Part shown: positions 8,579-23,367 of the stretch, one piece after another
Position numbering within the stretch: the first letter of the stretch is position 1
Layout: every line of letters begins with the position of its first letter
Source: Chloroflexota bacterium
Lineage (GTDB): Bacteria; Chloroflexota; Anaerolineae; Aggregatilineales; UBA2796
Length of the DNA: 34,608 bases
Reading direction: 5' to 3'
Assembly (NCBI GenBank): GCA_003695215.1
Contig: RFIM01000097.1
Span: forward strand, 1-34,608
Made by a program: the position numbers and the translations under genes
The notes under the pieces: generated by a model
Seen by the model: only the letters and a program-made list of their open reading frames with translations
The model's database searches: none
What the model was told of the DNA's origin: nothing

Positions 8579-9862
8579 TCAGCTACCGCTAGGTTGTGTG
8601 GCAATTGGCGGCGCCGCTGGCAGGTTGCCACCGCATTGGCGCAAGCCATCTTGGAATTGGCTAGCGAGCGCGCCGTTGGCGTCAAGGCGTGCGCCTTCGC
8701 GCAGAAGCGGCAAGGCCTCGCTACAGCGATTCAGCAAACTGAGCGAGAGACCTGCTACTAGGTAGGCGGCAGGGTCTTGAGAGCCGTAATCGATCGCCTG
8801 CAACGCAACCTCAGCAGCGCGCTGATAGTTCTGTGCACGGTAGAGGACTGTGCCGAGCCAGCGCAAGCACTTGATCTGCTTAGGATCGATATCGCGGCAG
8901 CGCTCCAGGTAGGTGCGCGCCTGATTGGGATCGCCGCGATTCAGATAGATGCGCCCGAGCAGGTAAGGGTTGATCGGATCGTCTTTATCGCGGTTGAAGG
9001 CTTCTTGCAGGATGCTGATGGCCTTGTCCGAATCGGCGCGATTCAGGTAATAGCCGGCGATCCACTGAGCGATGTAGCCGCGTGGCGCGCTCGGATCGCT
9101 TTGGGCAACGCGCCAGGCTTCTTCGTAAGCGCGAATTGCCTCAGCGCCGCTAGAGCGGCTGAGCACGTTGCCTTGTACTACATAGGCGTAGGCCAGGGCC
9201 GTTACATCGATTGGATTGTTCGTCTTCGCTAACTCGATAGCTTCTTCAGCGTAGCGCGCCGCTTCCTCAGGGCGATCTAAATCGTCGTAAGTATCAGCGA
9301 GGACGGCGAGCAGCATTGGATTGCGGGGTTCCAGATCGCGTGCCCGCAGAAGGTATGGCAGTGCCAGCTGCGGCTTGCCGCTGTTGTTGTAGGCCAAGCC
9401 GCTCATGATCCAGCCTTCAGCGGATTCAGGATCGGCGTTCAACGCCGCGGTTGCAGCGCGCAGCACTTCGGCGTGGCGCGCCTTGTCATCAGGATCGCCG
9501 CGCAGGGCGATGATCCGCGTGAGTGTGGCGAAAAGTTGCACGTCGTTCGGCGCCAAATCGCCCAGGCTCCATAGCGCCGCAATGGCGTTGTTGACGTTGC
9601 CGGCTTGCATGTAGCTGATGTAGCGCACGCGCAAATCAGCGGCAGGCACTGTCGGTGTAGGCGTCGGCGGATTCAGCTGAATGCGGATATTGCGGCTGGC
9701 CCAATCGCCAAGGCGCTGGCTGACTGCCTCGCGCGCATTCCAGATCAGCAGCAGCGGAATCAGCACAATTGGAAACAGGATGTATAGCCATAGCCAGCGC
9801 AAATTGAGCAAGTAGCGCCGCTTGCCTTTGGCTGTGTAGCGCTTCGGCGTACGCAGATACAT
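8579..9862 (-). CDS. Membrane-anchored TPR protein (third of tandem set)
   Basis: Basic N-terminus, TM, PPTPTPTVP linker, several TPR-like repeats. Confidence 0.82.
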   Translation of the reverse strand: MYLRTPKRYTAKGKRRYLLNLRWLWLYILFPIVLIPLLLIWNAREAVSQRLGDWASRNIRIQLNPPTPTPTVPAADLRVRYISYMQAGNVNNAIAALWSLGDLAPNDVQLFATLTRIIALRGDPDDKARHAEVLRAATAALNADPESAEGWIMSGLAYNNSGKPQLALPYLLRARDLEPRNPMLLAVLADTYDDLDRPEEAARYAEEAIELAKTNNPIDVTALAYAYVVQGNVLSRSSGAEAIRAYEEAWRVAQSDPSAPRGYIAQWIAGYYLNRADSDKAISILQEAFNRDKDDPINPYLLGRIYLNRGDPNQARTYLERCRDIDPKQIKCLRWLGTVLYRAQNYQRAAEVALQAIDYGSQDPAAYLVAGLSLSLLNRCSEALPLLREGARLDANGALASQFQDGLRQCGGNLPAAPPIATQPSGS

Positions 9863-9868
9863 AGCGCT

Positions 9869-11116
9869 TCAACTTCCTGTGCGCTGATTGCAGATCGCCA
9901 CGCCTTTGTTGACCAGCTCAACGGCGCGCTGGCTGGTCGTCCATGCCAGCACATCATTGAAGATCGGCATGGCGCGTGCGCAATCGCCAAGCGAGAGATA
10001 AGCCAAGCCGCCATAAGACCAACACTCGGTTTGGCGCACAGGCGCAGGCACTTGCGCATCCAGGCTGCGGCAAGTATCAAAGGCTTCGACTGCTTGTTCG
10101 TACTCCATCAGGCGGTAGTGCACCTCGCCGAGCCAGCGCCACGCAGTCGTGTAGCTTGGATCGATATCCACAGCAGTGCGGCAGTTATCGCGGGCTAGGT
10201 TGCGCTCGCCAATGGCGAAATAGGCGCGGCACAAGCTGGTGTAGGCCTTGACGCTGCGTCGATTCATGCCCAGCACGGTATCGTAAGCGTTAATCGCCAA
10301 CAAATTGAGCGCTTGATCGCCGCGCTGCAAGCCTGTGGCGAGCGCCTGCGCCGCAAGGTTGAAGTAGGGGAACTCCAGACGCGGGTTGTAGGCAGCGGCG
10401 CGCTTGAAGTGATCGATCGCCTGATCGGCGCGGCGCGAAGCGGCTAGCAAGAAGGCGTAGGCTGTGTTGCCTTCCAAGTGGTTCGGATCGAGCTGCAAGG
10501 CGCGCTGGGCAGCCTCAAAGGCGACGTCATAGCGCGCTAGATCGTAGTAAGCGAGCGCCAGGTAGGCATGCGCATTCGCATCTTCGGGCAGCAAGGTGAT
10601 GGCGCGGTTGCACGCCTGAGCGGCCTCTTCGCTGCGGGCAAGGCGCACGAGCGCATAGCATTGAATGGCAAAGGCGCGTCCATGGCGCGGATTGGCTTCG
10701 ACCAGCTGGTTAGCATAAGCCAGCGCTGATTCGCGGTCGGGCCAATTGCGCTCATCATCAAAGCTACGGTAGATGTGCATTCGCGCCAACTCGTAGACGA
10801 TATCGACGTTAGTTGGCGCTAGGCGCGCGGCGTGCGTATAGTGTTCGATGGCGGCATTCAGGTTGCCGCGCCAAAAGGCCAGATCGCCCTGCCGTGCTGC
10901 CTCAAGGGCAGTAGGCGTTGGCGTTTGCACAATGCCGAAAGCTGCCAGGACCACAGGTTGAATAGCACTCAGCTGCCAGAAGACAATGCCCGTGCCGATC
11001 AGCGCCACAATCACTAGGGCCAGTAAGAGCGCTGTGCGGCGCCGACGCCGCTCGCGGAAGAGCAGGCCTTTGCCGAGCGCAGATTGATGGCGGCGGATGT
11101 AATAGTCGCGCGGCAT
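9869..11116 (-). CDS. Membrane-anchored TPR protein (second of tandem set)
   Basis: RERRRRR + TM + QTPTPTAL linker + TPRs; clearly paralogous to 11130-12455 (RLAPTNVDIVYELAR, AYTSLCRAYFAIGE, WRWLGEVHY). Confidence 0.85.
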   Translation of the reverse strand: MPRDYYIRRHQSALGKGLLFRERRRRRTALLLALVIVALIGTGIVFWQLSAIQPVVLAAFGIVQTPTPTALEAARQGDLAFWRGNLNAAIEHYTHAARLAPTNVDIVYELARMHIYRSFDDERNWPDRESALAYANQLVEANPRHGRAFAIQCYALVRLARSEEAAQACNRAITLLPEDANAHAYLALAYYDLARYDVAFEAAQRALQLDPNHLEGNTAYAFLLAASRRADQAIDHFKRAAAYNPRLEFPYFNLAAQALATGLQRGDQALNLLAINAYDTVLGMNRRSVKAYTSLCRAYFAIGERNLARDNCRTAVDIDPSYTTAWRWLGEVHYRLMEYEQAVEAFDTCRSLDAQVPAPVRQTECWSYGGLAYLSLGDCARAMPIFNDVLAWTTSQRAVELVNKGVAICNQRTGS

Positions 11117-11129
11117 GGCTCAGCGGCTC

Positions 11130-12455
11130 CTAGACAATTGGCGTCGGGCGCGGCGTCGGCGTTGGGATTGGCGTCGGCGTACGATACAGGCCTTGATAGG
11201 CAGTGGCGCATTTCTCGATAGTGCGGCGCGTCTCACGGATAGCGATCTCGTCCGTCGTCCAGGTCAGCACGTCATCGAGAATAGGTATGGCAGTGTTGCA
11301 ATCGCCGAGGATGAAATAGCCAACGCCGCGCAGCCACCAGCAGGTCGGATCGCGCAGCGCCTTTGGGATGCCTTGTCGCTCTTCGAGCTGAGCGCAAGTG
11401 CGCAGCGCCTCGACGGCATCTTCGTAGTTGCGGCTCTTGTGATACACCTCGCCCAGCCAGCGCCACGCCTGGCTGGACTCAGGATCGATGCGCGTCGCTT
11501 CTTGGCAGTATTCGCGGGCGAGTTTCGGCTCACCTTTGGCCAGATAAGTTTGGCAGATGCGCGTATAGGCCTTTACGCTGCTCGGATTGTGCTGCAAGAT
11601 GGTGTTATAGGCGCTCAAGGCGATGCGGTAGAGCGTCTCAGCGCGGTCAGGGTTGCGCTCGACGTTAGCCAACGAGTAGGCATAGAAGGCCATCTGGAAA
11701 TAAGGAAATTCCAGCTTTGGATTGATGGACGCCGCTAACTTGTAGTGATCGAGGGCGCGCTCGACGCGCCCTTGAAAGGCAAGCGCGAGCGCATAGGCCA
11801 TGTTGCCATCAATGCTCTTTGGGTTCAAGCGCACAGCCGTCGCCGCTTCATCGAGCGCTGCTGCTGTGCGGCCTAGATCGTACTGAGCCAAAGCCAAGTA
11901 AGCGTGCGACTCGGAGTCGTTCGGGTTCAGGTCAATGGCACGGATACAAGATTGGACAGCAGCGCTGCTTTGACGGGCGCGGATCAGCGCGAAGCAGTGA
12001 ATGGTGTAGGCCCGTGGATTGTTGGGCGCGCTCTCAATCAGGCGATTCGTCCATTGCAGCGCCTCGTCAATATCGCCGATGAAGCGCGCGTCGTTATAGC
12101 TACGGTAGAGCAATGTCCGCGCCAGTTCATAGATGATGTCTACATTGGTCGGCGCCAGGCGCGCTGCATTGCGGTAAGCCGCTATAGCGCTGTCCAGGTC
12201 GCCCTGCCAGAAAGCGGCATCGCCTTGCTGGGCCCAAGCGCCCGCGGTGATGGTAGGCGTCGGCTGGATGCCCACAAGGGCTAGCACACGCGGCTGCAAC
12301 GCGTCCATTTGCCAAAAAGCCAGCAGCGCTAGCAGGAAAGTCGGTAGCCAGAGCGTATAGAACCAGAGCGGCAGCGCGGCGCGCCTTCTTTGGCGGAAGG
12401 ATAAGCCGCCGCGCCGTCCGCTGCGGTTCCGTTGAATGCGCGGGTAGTGATTCAT
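11130..12455 (-). CDS. Membrane-anchored TPR protein (first of tandem set)
   Basis: FRQRRRAALPLWFYTLWLPTFLLALLAFW TM, QPTPTIT linker, TPRs, C-terminal PTPIPTPTPRPTPIV. Confidence 0.85.
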   Translation of the reverse strand: MNHYPRIQRNRSGRRGGLSFRQRRRAALPLWFYTLWLPTFLLALLAFWQMDALQPRVLALVGIQPTPTITAGAWAQQGDAAFWQGDLDSAIAAYRNAARLAPTNVDIIYELARTLLYRSYNDARFIGDIDEALQWTNRLIESAPNNPRAYTIHCFALIRARQSSAAVQSCIRAIDLNPNDSESHAYLALAQYDLGRTAAALDEAATAVRLNPKSIDGNMAYALALAFQGRVERALDHYKLAASINPKLEFPYFQMAFYAYSLANVERNPDRAETLYRIALSAYNTILQHNPSSVKAYTRICQTYLAKGEPKLAREYCQEATRIDPESSQAWRWLGEVYHKSRNYEDAVEALRTCAQLEERQGIPKALRDPTCWWLRGVGYFILGDCNTAIPILDDVLTWTTDEIAIRETRRTIEKCATAYQGLYRTPTPIPTPTPRPTPIV

Positions 12456-13254: not shown

Positions 13255-13402
13255 TGAAATCGGTTACAAGCGTTTATTGCGTTTAAGAATCTTGCGCAAT
13301 TCGCTTTGCGAACATGAGCTTAGCATTAAGTGCGAGCTTGCGTCCAATTTTCAATTTATATTCCATTAACTTTGCTTGCGTGCGAAACTTGGGAGATTAT
13401 GA

Positions 13403-15532
13403 ATGTCCGCTTACCTAATCGTAGATATAGAAGACTTGCTGGTCGGTTTGCAGCAGCGCGCCTTTGCGATTGATCTCTATGATCTCGCCTCGCGCCTGCG
13501 CAGCACAGCCGCGCTAGCCGCTGGCGTGAGCCTGGAGCGCCTGCAGGCTGTGGCTGTAGCCAATTGGGAAAGCGTCCGAGCGCTGAACAGCTCAGCGCAG
13601 CCAATCCTGGAAGGTGTAGGCTTCCAGACCTTCGACGTGCCCGAGCGCGCTCAGTTTGCCGATGCCTTGATGGCACGTTACTTCGGCGATGATGCCGAGC
13701 CGCTGAATGAGCTGATTCTGGTGGCGACTAGCCAGGAAGTGCTCTCGCTGATCGCGCGCGTGCCGAAGCGCCGCAACGCGCGTGTGCGCGTCTGGGCGGA
13801 TAGCGCGCCTAGCACTTCAGACGAGATCATCTATCAGCCGCTTGAGACTGTGCTGGGTATTCAGACGAAGACAGTGGCGCTGTACATCGATTTCGAGAAC
13901 ATCGCCATCAGCCTGAATCAGCAAGGGTATGCCGTCAACTTGGATCGCTTGATCGAAGGGTTCAGCGCACACGCCAAGGCGCATGGGCAAATCGTCAAGA
14001 TGGCAGCCTACGCGCCGTGGGGAAAGCGCGGCAGCCTGCCGCCTTTGATCGACTCGAGCGGGCGCGAAGTCTCTGATGAGGCCAGCAGCCGCCTCGCTTT
14101 GGCCAACATCGATCCTGTTTTCAATCTGCCTGGCAAGAATAGCGCCGATATGCGCATTGCCAAAGACGTGCTTGCCGATAGCGCACAGCCGAACTCGGCT
14201 GATATTTTCATCATTGCCAGCGGTGACCGCGACTTCAACGATGTTTTCTCGGCGCTGCGGGCGCGCAACAAGCAGGTAATTGTCTGGGGCGTGCGCGGCA
14301 GCACCAGCCGCCTGCTAGAGACGAATCCGTCATTGCAGGTTGAATACCTGGACGATTTTCTTGGTTTGACGCGCTATGATGCGCTGAGCGCTCAGCCACA
14401 CATAGCTATGGCGCTCAGCAGTACTGCCACAGCCTTCACACCTTCGCAATGGTCGAGCCTGATCCTGCAATACGATCGCCTGATGGCGAGCCTGGGCGCC
14501 CATGAGGTGACGCTAGAGGCGCTGCAAGAGCATCTACAAGAGATGAACGCTGTGGTCTCAGCAGAGCGCGGGCGCGATTTGATCATGCAGGCTGTGGCGA
14601 TGGGCATCTTCCGCCTGCGCCATGGCGACGGCCTGGACTTTGTGCAGCCTGCCGACGAGCATCCGATCGTGGCGCGCACGCGCCTCGTCCGCGACCGCAT
14701 CCTGTTGCGCGTGGCGAATACGCTGGAAGTGCGCAGCTGGGAATACGTGAACTATGGCTTTTTGCTCAAGGGCATTGCCATGGATCGTGAATTGGACAAG
14801 CCCGGCTTGAACGTAGACGACGCTTGGCGCTCTGAGTGGATAGATTGTCTCGTCCGCGAAGGGCTGCTCATCCGCGAGATGATACCGCACCGCCACAATC
14901 CTGAGGATTTAGTACCCGTGATCAAGCTGGCGCCAGATTTGCCGCCAATGGCGCGCCCAAGGCCACCTGCTATCAATGGCAAGCCTTCGTACGACGATCT
15001 GGATACTTCCTCAACGCAAGTGGTCAAGCGCGACCTTGAGACAGAAGATATGATGAAGCGGATCGTCGTGAGCGTCGATCAGTTCACCAGCTACCGTGGC
15101 TTCACCTGGTGCCCGTTGGGCAGCTTGCATCGGCGCTTGCGGCCATACGATTCAGGTGTGACTTTTCAGCGCGCTGTGGAATGGCTGCAAGAGCTAGGCG
15201 CCGTCAAGATTGACGAATACGAGAATCCTGAGAGTCCTTACAAGACGAAAGGCATCTCGGTGATCTCGACATCCAATGTTGCGCAGGAGATTCTGCGCGA
15301 GCGCAATGCTTTTATCCGCGGCTTACTGCGCCTCTACGAGCAGCATCTGCCAATCAACATGTCCAACATCGCTCGCGAGACAGGCCTGAGCGAAAGTGAG
15401 CTATCGCTCTGGGTATCGATCATGGAGTCAGAGAACGTGCTGAATCCAGTGCAAGGCAAGCCAGGCTTGTACAGCTTGTTCCGCGGGCACCATACGGTCA
15501 ATCTGGTGGCACAGATGGGCGATCAGGCTTGA
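13403..15532 (+). CDS. NYN-domain (PIN-like) ribonuclease-family protein with duplicated N-terminal domain and winged-helix-like C-terminus
   Basis: TVALYIDFENIAISL, KNSADMRIAKDVL, ADIFIIASGDRDFNDVFSALRARNKQVIVWG; a degenerate copy precedes it (YLIVDIEDLLVGL ... ELILVATSQEVLSLIARVPKRRNARVRVWA). Confidence 0.85.
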   Translation: MSAYLIVDIEDLLVGLQQRAFAIDLYDLASRLRSTAALAAGVSLERLQAVAVANWESVRALNSSAQPILEGVGFQTFDVPERAQFADALMARYFGDDAEPLNELILVATSQEVLSLIARVPKRRNARVRVWADSAPSTSDEIIYQPLETVLGIQTKTVALYIDFENIAISLNQQGYAVNLDRLIEGFSAHAKAHGQIVKMAAYAPWGKRGSLPPLIDSSGREVSDEASSRLALANIDPVFNLPGKNSADMRIAKDVLADSAQPNSADIFIIASGDRDFNDVFSALRARNKQVIVWGVRGSTSRLLETNPSLQVEYLDDFLGLTRYDALSAQPHIAMALSSTATAFTPSQWSSLILQYDRLMASLGAHEVTLEALQEHLQEMNAVVSAERGRDLIMQAVAMGIFRLRHGDGLDFVQPADEHPIVARTRLVRDRILLRVANTLEVRSWEYVNYGFLLKGIAMDRELDKPGLNVDDAWRSEWIDCLVREGLLIREMIPHRHNPEDLVPVIKLAPDLPPMARPRPPAINGKPSYDDLDTSSTQVVKRDLETEDMMKRIVVSVDQFTSYRGFTWCPLGSLHRRLRPYDSGVTFQRAVEWLQELGAVKIDEYENPESPYKTKGISVISTSNVAQEILRERNAFIRGLLRLYEQHLPINMSNIARETGLSESELSLWVSIMESENVLNPVQGKPGLYSLFRGHHTVNLVAQMGDQA

Positions 15533-19590: not shown

Positions 19591-21063
19591 CTATCGTGTG
19601 GCCTTACGTCGAGTCTCGCCGAAGACGACCTTGCCCGACTGATCGTTGATGAACGCAAGGCGCATGTCACCATCGACTTCGGTCAGCTGAGCGATCCAGA
19701 CGGGTAGGAGCGCGAGCGAGAAGATCATGTTGGTGATTTGCGTCGTCGTGCGCTTCACCCGTGAGACCTGCATGCCATGCTGGTTGCGCGCCTGATCGGT
19801 CACTTCGTAAGGATACTTGCGGCGCATTTGCGCTGTGACCAAGCTGCGCGCTTCTAGCGAAGCCTTATCCAGATCGAGCGTATAAAGCTCAGCCGGATAT
19901 TCTGCCAGCCACTTGGGCGCGTAGTTCACGGCGCGCTGCATATCGAAGGGCGCTAGCTGAATCAACGAGTGCATTGGCGGCGCTTGCACAGCAGGAATGG
20001 CCACGTTGCCTACCATATCTTGCCAAGTCTGGCTCTCGCCGATAGGCACGCCTTGGACAATGTGCGTCTGCGAGACCTTCACAAAGGCATCAAAGAGCCA
20101 GAACGGCACGTAAGCGCCTTCTATGGCCATGTGCGCGATCTGGTTCGTGTTGAACAAATTTGCCAGGCGCTGGCCTGGACGCTGCAAGGCGCGGTCGATC
20201 ATAGCGCGGACTGCCTCGGGCGTGTGCCGAAAAGGCAGGATGAAATCAGGCTGCACAAATGAGCGCAGCACATCGCTGATCATCACGCTTGTGGCGCCAC
20301 AAAAACGGCATTGCACCGAGAGTTTGTTTGCAAGCAGGGTATGCTCTGCACCGCACTGTTGGCAAATCATGATTCGAGTGCCAACTTTCCAGCGGTGCGG
20401 CTGCGTCTTGCGCTCCAGCAGCGATAAGATCAGCAGATTGGCGCTATCCGTGCGCCTTTCTCGCTCCGCTTCAACGAAACCGCAGAAGCTGCACTCAACC
20501 AGCCCGAGTCGCTCGTTCAAGCTCAAAGTGCCGCCGCAGATGCGGCACAACAGCGCTTTGGCGTGCCCTTGAACGCTCTCAGCGCGCGCCTCTTGCGGCT
20601 GCGCTTCAGCATACACGCTTTCGGATATCGGCAAGCCCTGATCCAACTTCTTGAGCAGATGAATTGCCTCAGTGTGCACAGGCTCATAGGCAAGGACGAT
20701 CTCCAAATGCTCGCGCTGCACTGCAGGATTAGGTGAGCTCTTGGCGACCCATAAGTGCGCGTCCACAAAATCGCGCTGATATTCACAGGCGCGCAAGAAA
20801 GCCTCCAGAGCGCCTTCCATGTTACCCTGATTGAATAGCTCCCGCCCTGTGCGGAAAGCCGCCAAGGCGCGCGGTAAAATCTCACCCTTGTAGGTCAGCG
20901 GCAGATGTGCGCTCAGTGGACGCGCCTCAATTTCCTGGCGCTTAGCTTCCAGCTGACTGATTTCATCAGGGCGTACGTAGGCACAGTGCCTGCAGTACAC
21001 TTTGCCTGTAGCAAAATCCAATGTCAGACGCTGGCCGCACACAGGGCAGGTGAAATTCGCCAT
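19591..21063 (-). CDS. Multi-zinc-ribbon protein with TPR-like segment
   Basis: CPVCGQRLTLDFATGKVYCRHC; CRICGGTLSLNERLGLVECSFC; CQQCGAEHTLLANKLSVQCRFC; TPR-like AFRTGRELFNQGNMEGALEAFLRACEYQ. Start MANFTC (21063) preferred to 21141. Confidence 0.8.
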   Translation of the reverse strand: MANFTCPVCGQRLTLDFATGKVYCRHCAYVRPDEISQLEAKRQEIEARPLSAHLPLTYKGEILPRALAAFRTGRELFNQGNMEGALEAFLRACEYQRDFVDAHLWVAKSSPNPAVQREHLEIVLAYEPVHTEAIHLLKKLDQGLPISESVYAEAQPQEARAESVQGHAKALLCRICGGTLSLNERLGLVECSFCGFVEAERERRTDSANLLILSLLERKTQPHRWKVGTRIMICQQCGAEHTLLANKLSVQCRFCGATSVMISDVLRSFVQPDFILPFRHTPEAVRAMIDRALQRPGQRLANLFNTNQIAHMAIEGAYVPFWLFDAFVKVSQTHIVQGVPIGESQTWQDMVGNVAIPAVQAPPMHSLIQLAPFDMQRAVNYAPKWLAEYPAELYTLDLDKASLEARSLVTAQMRRKYPYEVTDQARNQHGMQVSRVKRTTTQITNMIFSLALLPVWIAQLTEVDGDMRLAFINDQSGKVVFGETRRKATR

Positions 21064-21134
21064 ACGATCAACCTCCGCGCCTTCAATTGTAGTGCATCTT
21101 TTGCTGAACGGCACGCGCCATAATCGCCAATAAA

Positions 21135-21163
21135 TTGACACTGTGCCATTCTCTTTTTACAAT
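21135..21163 (+). promoter_or_regulatory. Predicted promoter of the CHAT gene: TTGACA - N17 - TACAAT
   Basis: TTGACA 21135-21140, TACAAT 21158-21163. Confidence 0.75.
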
Positions 21164-21213
21164 CTGCGCTCAGCGTGAAAATCGGACTCTCGGCGGCGGA
21201 AAGGCGACGCACT

Positions 21214-23367
21214 ATGGCGACGCAGGAATACCTCGATTTTGAGCTGACTATTGAGGCGCTCCCTAACGATCAGCTGCGCGTGACACTGGCGAATTCGCCC
21301 GTCGGCTCAGCTACAGTGGACGTGCCGAATCCGATCACGCCCGCCGAAGCCGAGCGGATTATCAAAATCCTCGACGGCACGAGGCGCGTGCCGCGCGACG
21401 AGGCAACGCGGGCTGCGCGCGTCTTCGGCGAAAAGCTCTTCAGCGCCGTCTTCAGCGGGCAAATCTACGGCGCTTACCTGGCTAGCCGTGCGCAAGCGGC
21501 TGAGCGCGGCCTGCGCCTCCGCCTGAACTTGGATAAAGCCGAAGCGCTCTACGACCTGCCCTGGGAATTGTTGCACGATCCCTCGAGCGATTATCTGGCG
21601 CTCTCACGCCAGACGCCGATCGTCCGCTATCCGCGCGTGATCGACGTTCGCCCTGTGGTCGAGATCAGCCTGCCGCTGCGCGTCTTAGTGCTGATCAGCA
21701 GCCCGAGCGATCAAGCAGCCTTGGATGTCGAAGCGGAGTGGCGAAGCCTGCAAGAGGCAACTGCCGATCTACGCCAACGCGGCTTGTTGGAACTAGAGCG
21801 CGTAGATGATGCACAGCTGATCGTCTTGCAGCGCAAGCTGCGCAGCGGCGTGAGCTATCAAATCTTCCATTACATCGGTCACGCTACCTTCGATGAGCGC
21901 AATGCGGTCGGCATGTTGGCTTTTGAGTCGCCGCGCACTGAGCAAACACAGCTTGTCAGTGGCGAGGAATTGGCGCGCGAGCTGGTTGAACAAAACAGCA
22001 TTCGGCTCGTGGTGTTGAACGCCTGCCAAAGCGCGCGCCAGGTACACAACAATCGGTTCTCGGGCATCGCCTCAAGCATTATGGCACGCGGCGTGCCTGC
22101 TGTCGTGGCGATGCAATTCCCGATCAGCGACGAAGCGGCGCGCATCTTTGCCCATGAGTTCTACCGCGCGCTCTCGGAAGGCTATCCGATTGAAGCGTCT
22201 GTGGCAGAAGCGCGGCGCGCCATCAAAAGCGAGCTGGGAAACCTTGAATGGGCGACGCCTGTGCTGTTCCTGCGCGCTCAAAGTGGCGTCCTCTTCCCAA
22301 AGCGGCGCACCTTCACTGAGCGCCCATCTTACGGCGGCCTGCGCGAGGCTTTGCTGCGCCCGCGCGTGCTGCTAGGTTTGGCCGCATTGCTGATCGTCGC
22401 TTTGGGCTTGGTCAGCCTGCTGAGCAGTCTGTTTGGCGGCCTCAGCGCGCCGACGCCTGCATCACCGAGCACGCCTGTGCCTATCATCGCCACATTCACG
22501 CCAACGCCTGATGCGCCACGCAACGTCGATCTGGTCATCACCCGTGTGCGCTTCCTGCCCTCGAACCCAGCGCCTGGCCAAGCAGTCACAGTCGCTATTG
22601 AGTTGCAGAATAACGGCACAAGCGACTCAGGCCCGTTCGATTGGGTCTGGTTTGATACGAACGCCGAAGCTGAGAATGCCACGCCTGCCTTGCGCGGCAC
22701 AGTTGCCAATTTGAGCCCGCGCGCCAAGACAACGGTCATTGGCACTTATCGCTTCGGCTGGTGGGGAACCTACCTGACCACAGCTTGGGTCAATCCTGAC
22801 AATCGCGCGCCTGAGTCCAACATCTTCAACAACTTTGTGCCGCGCACGCTGAACACTGGCAGCGAGCCGTTCACAGTCGATTTCTCGCGCCTACCTGACG
22901 ATTCGCTGCTGGAAGCGGGCGTCCTGCGCGGCGATGAATTCGACAAGTGGCTGCTGAGAATGCGTGTCGAGACGGACGGCAATGCTGAATGCAGCGCTGC
23001 TGTGCTGCTGCTCACACTAATGGATGACCTGAATCAGATCACCACAGGGCTGCCAAACGCGCCACAGCGCTGTGCCAACCTGCCCGTGATCTTTGAGCTG
23101 AGCCAGCCATCTGAGTCGCCGCGCCTGCGCAGCGTGCTGATCGAGTTCTTGCCAACAGCGCAAGGCGAATACACACTCGAGGTGCGCGCTGCCGATAACA
23201 GCGTGCAGCGCCGCGAGACCTTGCGCGTGCAGCCAGGCGAAGTCGGCGTGCCTAAGACGCTCAGCGTCACGCTCGATGGCGCGGCGCGCCTTGCCCTGCG
23301 CGTGCCCGAGAACGCTCGGACTATCATCCGCCGCTTGACGCGCACTATCACACCGACTCAACCTTAG
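21214..23367 (+). CDS. CHAT-domain (caspase-like) protein with TM segment and CARDB-like extracytoplasmic region
   Basis: GHA and NACQSA catalytic motifs (YQIFHYIGHATF; LVVLNACQSAR), PWELLHDP; TM LLGLAALLIVALGLVSLLSSLF; APTPASPSTPVP linker; CARDB-like VDLVITRVRFLPSNPAPGQAVTVAIELQNNGT. Start 21214 fits the predicted promoter and GGCGGAAAGG RBS. Confidence 0.87.
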   Translation: MATQEYLDFELTIEALPNDQLRVTLANSPVGSATVDVPNPITPAEAERIIKILDGTRRVPRDEATRAARVFGEKLFSAVFSGQIYGAYLASRAQAAERGLRLRLNLDKAEALYDLPWELLHDPSSDYLALSRQTPIVRYPRVIDVRPVVEISLPLRVLVLISSPSDQAALDVEAEWRSLQEATADLRQRGLLELERVDDAQLIVLQRKLRSGVSYQIFHYIGHATFDERNAVGMLAFESPRTEQTQLVSGEELARELVEQNSIRLVVLNACQSARQVHNNRFSGIASSIMARGVPAVVAMQFPISDEAARIFAHEFYRALSEGYPIEASVAEARRAIKSELGNLEWATPVLFLRAQSGVLFPKRRTFTERPSYGGLREALLRPRVLLGLAALLIVALGLVSLLSSLFGGLSAPTPASPSTPVPIIATFTPTPDAPRNVDLVITRVRFLPSNPAPGQAVTVAIELQNNGTSDSGPFDWVWFDTNAEAENATPALRGTVANLSPRAKTTVIGTYRFGWWGTYLTTAWVNPDNRAPESNIFNNFVPRTLNTGSEPFTVDFSRLPDDSLLEAGVLRGDEFDKWLLRMRVETDGNAECSAAVLLLTLMDDLNQITTGLPNAPQRCANLPVIFELSQPSESPRLRSVLIEFLPTAQGEYTLEVRAADNSVQRRETLRVQPGEVGVPKTLSVTLDGAARLALRVPENARTIIRRLTRTITPTQP

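Follow-up and report, generated by a model that had tools for sequence, protein, structure and literature searches.

An intact NYN nuclease domain preceded by a degenerate NYN-like domain and followed by four modelled winged helices in Aggregatilineales (Chloroflexota)

The reading frame at 13403–15532 of the DNA analyzed here raises the question of whether a bacterial protein can join a nuclease domain to a degenerate relative of the same fold, and of what such a protein would do in the cell. The window is the whole stretch of 34,608 nucleotides (RFIM01000097.1, positions 1–34,608, forward strand; assembly GCA_003695215.1, Chloroflexota bacterium, Aggregatilineales; UBA2796). A preliminary description of this DNA had proposed a pseudo-nuclease/nuclease tandem with a winged-helix-like tail, and had suggested that the first domain may regulate, dimerise, or bind RNA. 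The tandem and its tail are supported by the present analysis: the catalytic Asp residues of the second domain (D2) are invariant in 64/64 full-length orthologues, while the first domain (D1) is NYN-like by profile and has the Asp of its SGD motif replaced in most of them. The features of the product are collected in Table 1.

Table 1. Coordinates in the window of the reading frame and of the domains and motifs of its product.
Feature	Position	Strand	Basis
ORF, 709 aa: pseudo-NYN, NYN, and four winged helices	13403..15532	+	ATG start, RBS-like GGGAG, orthologue matches
D1, residues 1–152, degenerate NYN-fold domain	13403..13858	+	D8, R129, W131, Q145, G152 invariant; SGD Asp lost
D2, residues 153–325, intact NYN nuclease domain	13859..14377	+	Pfam NYN 4.4e-21; D163, D249, D275, D277 invariant
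TVALYIDFEN motif, residues 157–166, catalytic D163	13871..13900	+	orthologue alignment; Asp set as in MARF1
PGKNSADMRIAKD motif, residues 243–255, catalytic D249	14129..14167	+	orthologue alignment
ASGDRDF motif, residues 272–278, catalytic D275	14216..14236	+	orthologue alignment
Winged helix 1, residues about 349–416	14447..14650	+	AlphaFold2 model
Winged helix 2, residues about 421–509, best-conserved tail module	14663..14929	+	AlphaFold2 model; mean pairwise identity 0.74
Winged helix 3, residues about 545–620, conserved QFTSxRxFxWCPLGSLHRRL	15035..15262	+	AlphaFold2 model, alignment
Winged helix 4, residues about 625–692	15275..15478	+	AlphaFold2 model

That the frame is a real gene is borne out by the RBS-like GGGAG found at about 13391–13395, upstream of the ATG at 13403, and by matches in 140 of the 154 genomes of the order, mostly over the full length. 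In the source genome, a MAG of 339 contigs, its product is the sole PF01936 (NYN) protein. A search of NCBIfam with the protein returned no family, solved structures searched by sequence yielded no significant relative, and the promoter and terminator scans around the gene stayed at chance level.

D2 matches the Pfam NYN family (PF01936) over residues 158–305 with an E-value of 4.4e-21 (76.3 bits, cut-off 24.2), and its motifs YIDFEN, NSADMRIAKD, and ASGDRDF, which contain those picked out in it beforehand, are all found. The residues D163, F164, E165, N166, D249, G274, D275, R276, D277, and F278 are invariant among the 64 full-length orthologues. The catalytic Asp residues of the MARF1 NYN domain are D358, D426, and D452 (PMC11346440), with equivalents in VPA0982 and in a CRISPR-associated NYN protein (PMC11346440; PMC6294520); judged by motif, D163, D249, and D275 are their counterparts. 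The MARF1 NYN domain is also matched when the full-protein model is compared with solved structures (Foldseek), the TM-score to the target being 0.79. From the intact motifs we infer that D2 holds a metal-dependent, RNA-cutting NYN active site. The mean pairwise identity among orthologues is 0.72 for D2 vs 0.52 for D1.

The evidence further indicates that D1 is very probably a diverged NYN domain. Pfam NYN is matched by 38 of the 64 orthologous D1 copies, the best at 5e-5, the next family being matched by 2/64; the window's own D1 (residues 1–152 alone) has no match in Pfam. The D1 and D2 profiles are collinear over 151 columns in hhalign (E-value 9.2e-5, or 1.6e-4 in another comparison), which, together with the Pfam matches, agrees with the earlier alignment of the two domains by the order of their motifs. 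An NYN profile that was kept free of D1 copies finds 10/64 of them at E<=0.1, a level reached by 0/1280 shuffled D1 sequences and by no unrelated ORF. The AlphaFold2 model of D1, built with 64 sequences, has a pLDDT of 89.9 and a pTM of 0.88, and its helix/strand order is nearly that of the D2 model. The predicted fold of residues 1–150, which the preliminary description had made the touchstone of its proposal, is modelled with confidence, is NYN-like in topology, and does not refute that proposal. In the comparison of this model with the PDB, the top probability (0.97) belongs to VPA0982 (2qip) and the top TM-score (0.54) to the MARF1 NYN domain (6fdl), with E-values of 0.03–0.07, none of them significant. 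VPA0982 is in addition the only PDB chain that weakly matches both the D1 and the D2 profiles by sequence. A duplicated or acquired NYN domain is the best explanation for the origin of D1.

The equivalence of D1 and D2 residues was set by matching the starts of the secondary-structure elements, which gives D8 = D163, S110 = D275, and residue 112 = D277; the register at 110/112 is agreed by other profile alignments, while the hhalign alignments are shifted by one there. D8, the first Asp of D1, is invariant in 64/64, as are R129, W131, Q145, and G152 among the orthologues. Position 110 is S in 31, N in 11, G in 7, and D in only 6 of the 64 copies (S110 in the window). The Asp of SGD is accordingly gone from D1 in 58/64, and the loss of SGDRDF from the first domain, already noticed in the window, proves to be the replacement of a catalytic Asp. 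Position 112, on the other hand, is D in 52/64 and D/E in 56/64 (E in the window); the preliminary description had noted neither this nor the invariance of D8. The middle catalytic Asp is probably lost as well: residue 84, equivalent to D249 by helix start, is Q in the window and not conserved. This loss is probable rather than certain because a D/E three positions further on, at residue 87, is kept in 55/64 and leaves the register in doubt. The earlier claim that the middle acidic motif is lost is thus probably right. Since Asp stands at position 110 in 6/64 only and the position at about 84 shows no conserved acidic residue, D1 lacks the full catalytic Asp set. The omega values are mostly about 0.04–0.2 for D1 vs 0.02–0.05 for D2, and D1, being under purifying selection though faster-evolving than D2, is a domain that has been kept and not one in decay.

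Two alternative views of D1 have to be weighed against these data. One of them takes D1 for a Rossmann-like domain that has no relation to NYN beyond a similar topology. Many Rossmann-fold enzymes do appear in the D1 fold search at E-values similar to those of the NYN structures, with nothing below 0.001, and the window's D1 alone is without a Pfam match. However, NYN is the only Pfam family matched by many copies, the NYN profile ranks D1 copies above all shuffles, and NYN structures lead the fold search both by probability and by TM-score, which makes an unrelated domain quite improbable. The other view holds that D1 is not dead, a reduced acidic site (D8, D/E87, and D112) binding a metal, a nucleotide, or an RNA end, so that the domain could act as an allosteric sensor or form a composite active site with D2. 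The conservation of D8 in all copies, of D/E87 in 55/64, and of D/E112 in 56/64 would be unexpected in a pure scaffold. Nevertheless, the equivalent of MARF1 D452 is lost in 58/64, helix position pairs D249 with a residue whose acidic character is not conserved, and the evolution of D1 is several times faster than that of D2; we regard an active or sensing D1 as a minority possibility. The reading that we prefer is that D1 would be a noncatalytic scaffold, having lost most of its catalytic Asp residues.

The tail, which comprises about 380 aa, is modelled by AlphaFold2 over residues 349–692 as four helix-helix-helix-strand-strand modules, i.e., winged helices. The winged-helix nature anticipated in the preliminary description is thereby retained, its length of about 350 aa being the part that needs correction. 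When the fold of the full model was searched, tandem winged-helix proteins obtained the lowest E-values, namely RPC62 of RNA polymerase III, TFIIIC, and SelB, the winged helices of the latter with a Foldseek E-value of 3e-4. Conservation is strong in the second and third modules. When the winged helices were compared among themselves by profile, no significant match emerged, and a recent duplication among them is therefore unsupported. The fourth module has a weak Rrf2-like match (E-value 0.22 with the full protein, at best 0.018 among orthologues). It may be that the winged helices bind DNA or protein rather than RNA.

The surroundings of the gene are informative with regard to its function. 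The gene rpsO encodes ribosomal protein S15, and pnp encodes the RNA-degrading PNPase. The usual arrangement among the orthologues is proS, the gene, rpsO, and pnp, all on one strand: proS lies upstream within 1.5 kb in 43/62 testable loci, and on the downstream side pnp follows on the same strand no more than 2.5 kb away in 40/60 loci, with rpsO present too in 37/60. As the arrangement is found on either side of the deepest split of the midpoint-rooted tree, it is probably ancestral and was lost in the window's lineage. The window copy is instead convergent with coaX, with priA beyond; coaX, priA, and hsp20 as neighbors are confined to its close relatives, coaX-priA being found in the window's genus. 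In the window's genome rpsO-pnp lies on a different contig from the gene, and in its family the gene has been relocated and the linkage lost. Since the gene is kept there, linkage to rpsO-pnp is not required. In one genome without the gene (G039) proS, rpsO, and pnp are directly adjacent, and it may be that these three were neighbors before the NYN gene was inserted. The window's genome further encodes RNase Y, two RMMBL (RNase J-type) proteins, and PNPase; no RNase E/G was found in it. As side observations, proS is divergent from rpsO-pnp in another genome without the gene (G019), and one genome (G008) has two PNPase genes, one with rpsO and the other without rpsO and more divergent.

The gene occurs in 86 of the 90 good-quality genomes of the order and in essentially one copy each, and those relatives in the species collection that bear names are Anaerolineae/Aggregatilineales MAGs. 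Among the 154 genomes it is missing from every one of the nine sampled in one family (f3), from both of a second (f7), from the one of a third (f6), and from G039 and G056. Its absence from the sampled genomes of f3, f7, and f6 indicates that it is dispensable at the family level. A comparison across 298 genomes of the class gave, outside the order, matches that span mainly the second NYN domain; 20 such loci, 19 of which lie outside the order, were read, and in them the NYN domain opens the protein or nearly does, D1 being absent. When 400 genomes of the phylum were searched with a D1 profile, no convincing match came from beyond the order. A weak match in one genome outside the order (G663) was rejected, since the reading frames at that locus are methionine-synthase-like or of unrelated kinds and none has an NYN domain. 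One genome of the order (G049, contig C30) encodes, besides the tandem protein, a shorter second NYN protein of about 295 aa whose tail is OST-HTH-like. Two orthologues on contigs titled Bacteroidetes and cyanobacterium are nested among Chloroflexota in the tree, and these MAGs have probably been mislabelled.

NYN nucleases that carry HTH tails occur widely among bacteria. A search of the open-access literature turned up no bacterial protein described as a pseudo-NYN/NYN tandem. The bacterial proteins that combine an LK-nuclease (DUF88/NYN, LabA-like) with OST-HTH are predicted to be standalone RNA-degrading enzymes and have no conserved linkage to known RNA-processing systems (Anantharaman et al. 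2010, PMC2848206). The present protein likewise has an NYN nuclease followed by helix-turn-helix modules, and in relatives from the same class the NYN domain leads. It differs from them by the additional degenerate N-terminal NYN, which puts the intact NYN second rather than N-terminal, by its four winged helices, none of the 35 orthologous C-terminal regions searched matching the OST-HTH models of Pfam, and by the conserved proS/rpsO-pnp neighborhood. On these three grounds it is a variant rather than a member of the LK-nuclease/OST-HTH group. Among solved NYN domains, that of MARF1/Limkain b1 (6fdl, 5yaa; PMC6294520) scores best against the full model; MARF1 has the same kind of acidic active site and shares the combination of nuclease and tandem winged-helix (LOTUS) modules, but has no pseudo-NYN. 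VPA0982 of Vibrio (2qip) has the NYN fold as a single domain without winged helices. The C-terminal winged helices of SelB (1lva, 2uwm), which are RNA-binding in that protein, are arranged in tandem like those of the tail by fold, whereas the present protein has no GTPase, SelB has no nuclease, and a sequence relation between the two is not detectable. Rae1/YacP is an NYN endoribonuclease of bacterial mRNA decay but belongs to a different NYN family (NYN_YacP, PF05991), which has no match anywhere in the window's genome and hence none in the product considered here. What is new here is that the gene is flanked in most orthologues by proS on one side and rpsO-pnp on the other, all on one strand.

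Taken together, we consider with moderate confidence that the protein, encoded in single copy and specific to this lineage, is a housekeeping endoribonuclease acting in RNA decay or processing, in which the pseudo-NYN serves as a noncatalytic partner; the biochemical role is deduced from domains and genomic context. The rpsO/pnp neighborhood suggests a role in RNA turnover. In terms of mechanism, D2 would cut RNA in a metal-dependent manner, as its motifs imply, and D1 probably packs on D2 as an intramolecular pseudo-dimer, shaping the access of RNA or stabilizing D2. The junction of the two domains has few residues and a strongly conserved sequence, QPLExLLGIQTKNVAVYID, while the pTM of the full-protein model (AlphaFold2) is only 0.55, so that the D1–D2 arrangement is uncertain. 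The four winged helices could select or position structured RNA, as those of SelB do, and the gene may be functionally tied to rpsO-pnp, with D2 making the first cut and PNPase digesting the fragments. Alternatively to feeding PNPase, the protein might process a dedicated structured RNA. The most detailed version, an order-specific RNA-decay factor made of a pseudo-NYN/active-NYN intramolecular heterodimer, guided by SelB-like winged helices and feeding PNPase, is put forward as a tentative proposal with perhaps a one-in-several prospect of being correct throughout. If the heterodimer reading is true, it would represent a previously undescribed bacterial pseudo-nuclease/nuclease pair within one chain. 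An NYN variant that is near-universal and single-copy in one order, mostly with rpsO-pnp, leads to the concrete hypothesis of an initial cut ahead of PNPase, and a pseudo-nuclease domain as a built-in partner becomes testable in bacteria.

We have also considered functions other than RNA decay. The winged helices might attach to DNA or to RNA polymerase in the way of RPC62, with the NYN domain acting on nascent RNA or being vestigial. The fact that the winged-helix arrays of RPC62 and TFIIIC are among the lowest E-values in the fold search, along with the weak Rrf2-like match in the fourth module, speaks in favor of such a role in transcription. However, tandem winged helices match one another across unrelated functions, the conserved neighbors are translation and RNA-decay genes, and the invariance of the catalytic residues means that D2 is not vestigial; a role of this kind is thus unlikely. 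A defence or stress nuclease, as could be imagined from the occurrence of LabA-like NYN proteins in defence libraries, is the least probable of all these readings. The PADLOC match to a LabA-like NYN is weak (E-value 0.0024), whereas the gene is single-copy in nearly every genome of the order and adjoins proS/rpsO/pnp in most relatives, and among the ten window genes scanned around the ORF there is no obvious defence gene, except for a CHAT-domain protein about 6 kb away.

Some of the other genes in the window deserve brief mention. The CHAT-domain (caspase-like) protein, of 730 aa, is encoded at 21175–23367 (+) and also contains a CARDB domain. A 516-aa protein at 19591–21141 (−) combines a weak TFIIB-type zinc ribbon match with a TPR. 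Three successive TPR proteins of 427, 415, and 441 aa are encoded at 8579–12455 (−) and are apparent tandem paralogues, at least the last two of which share similar N-terminal basic/transmembrane starts.
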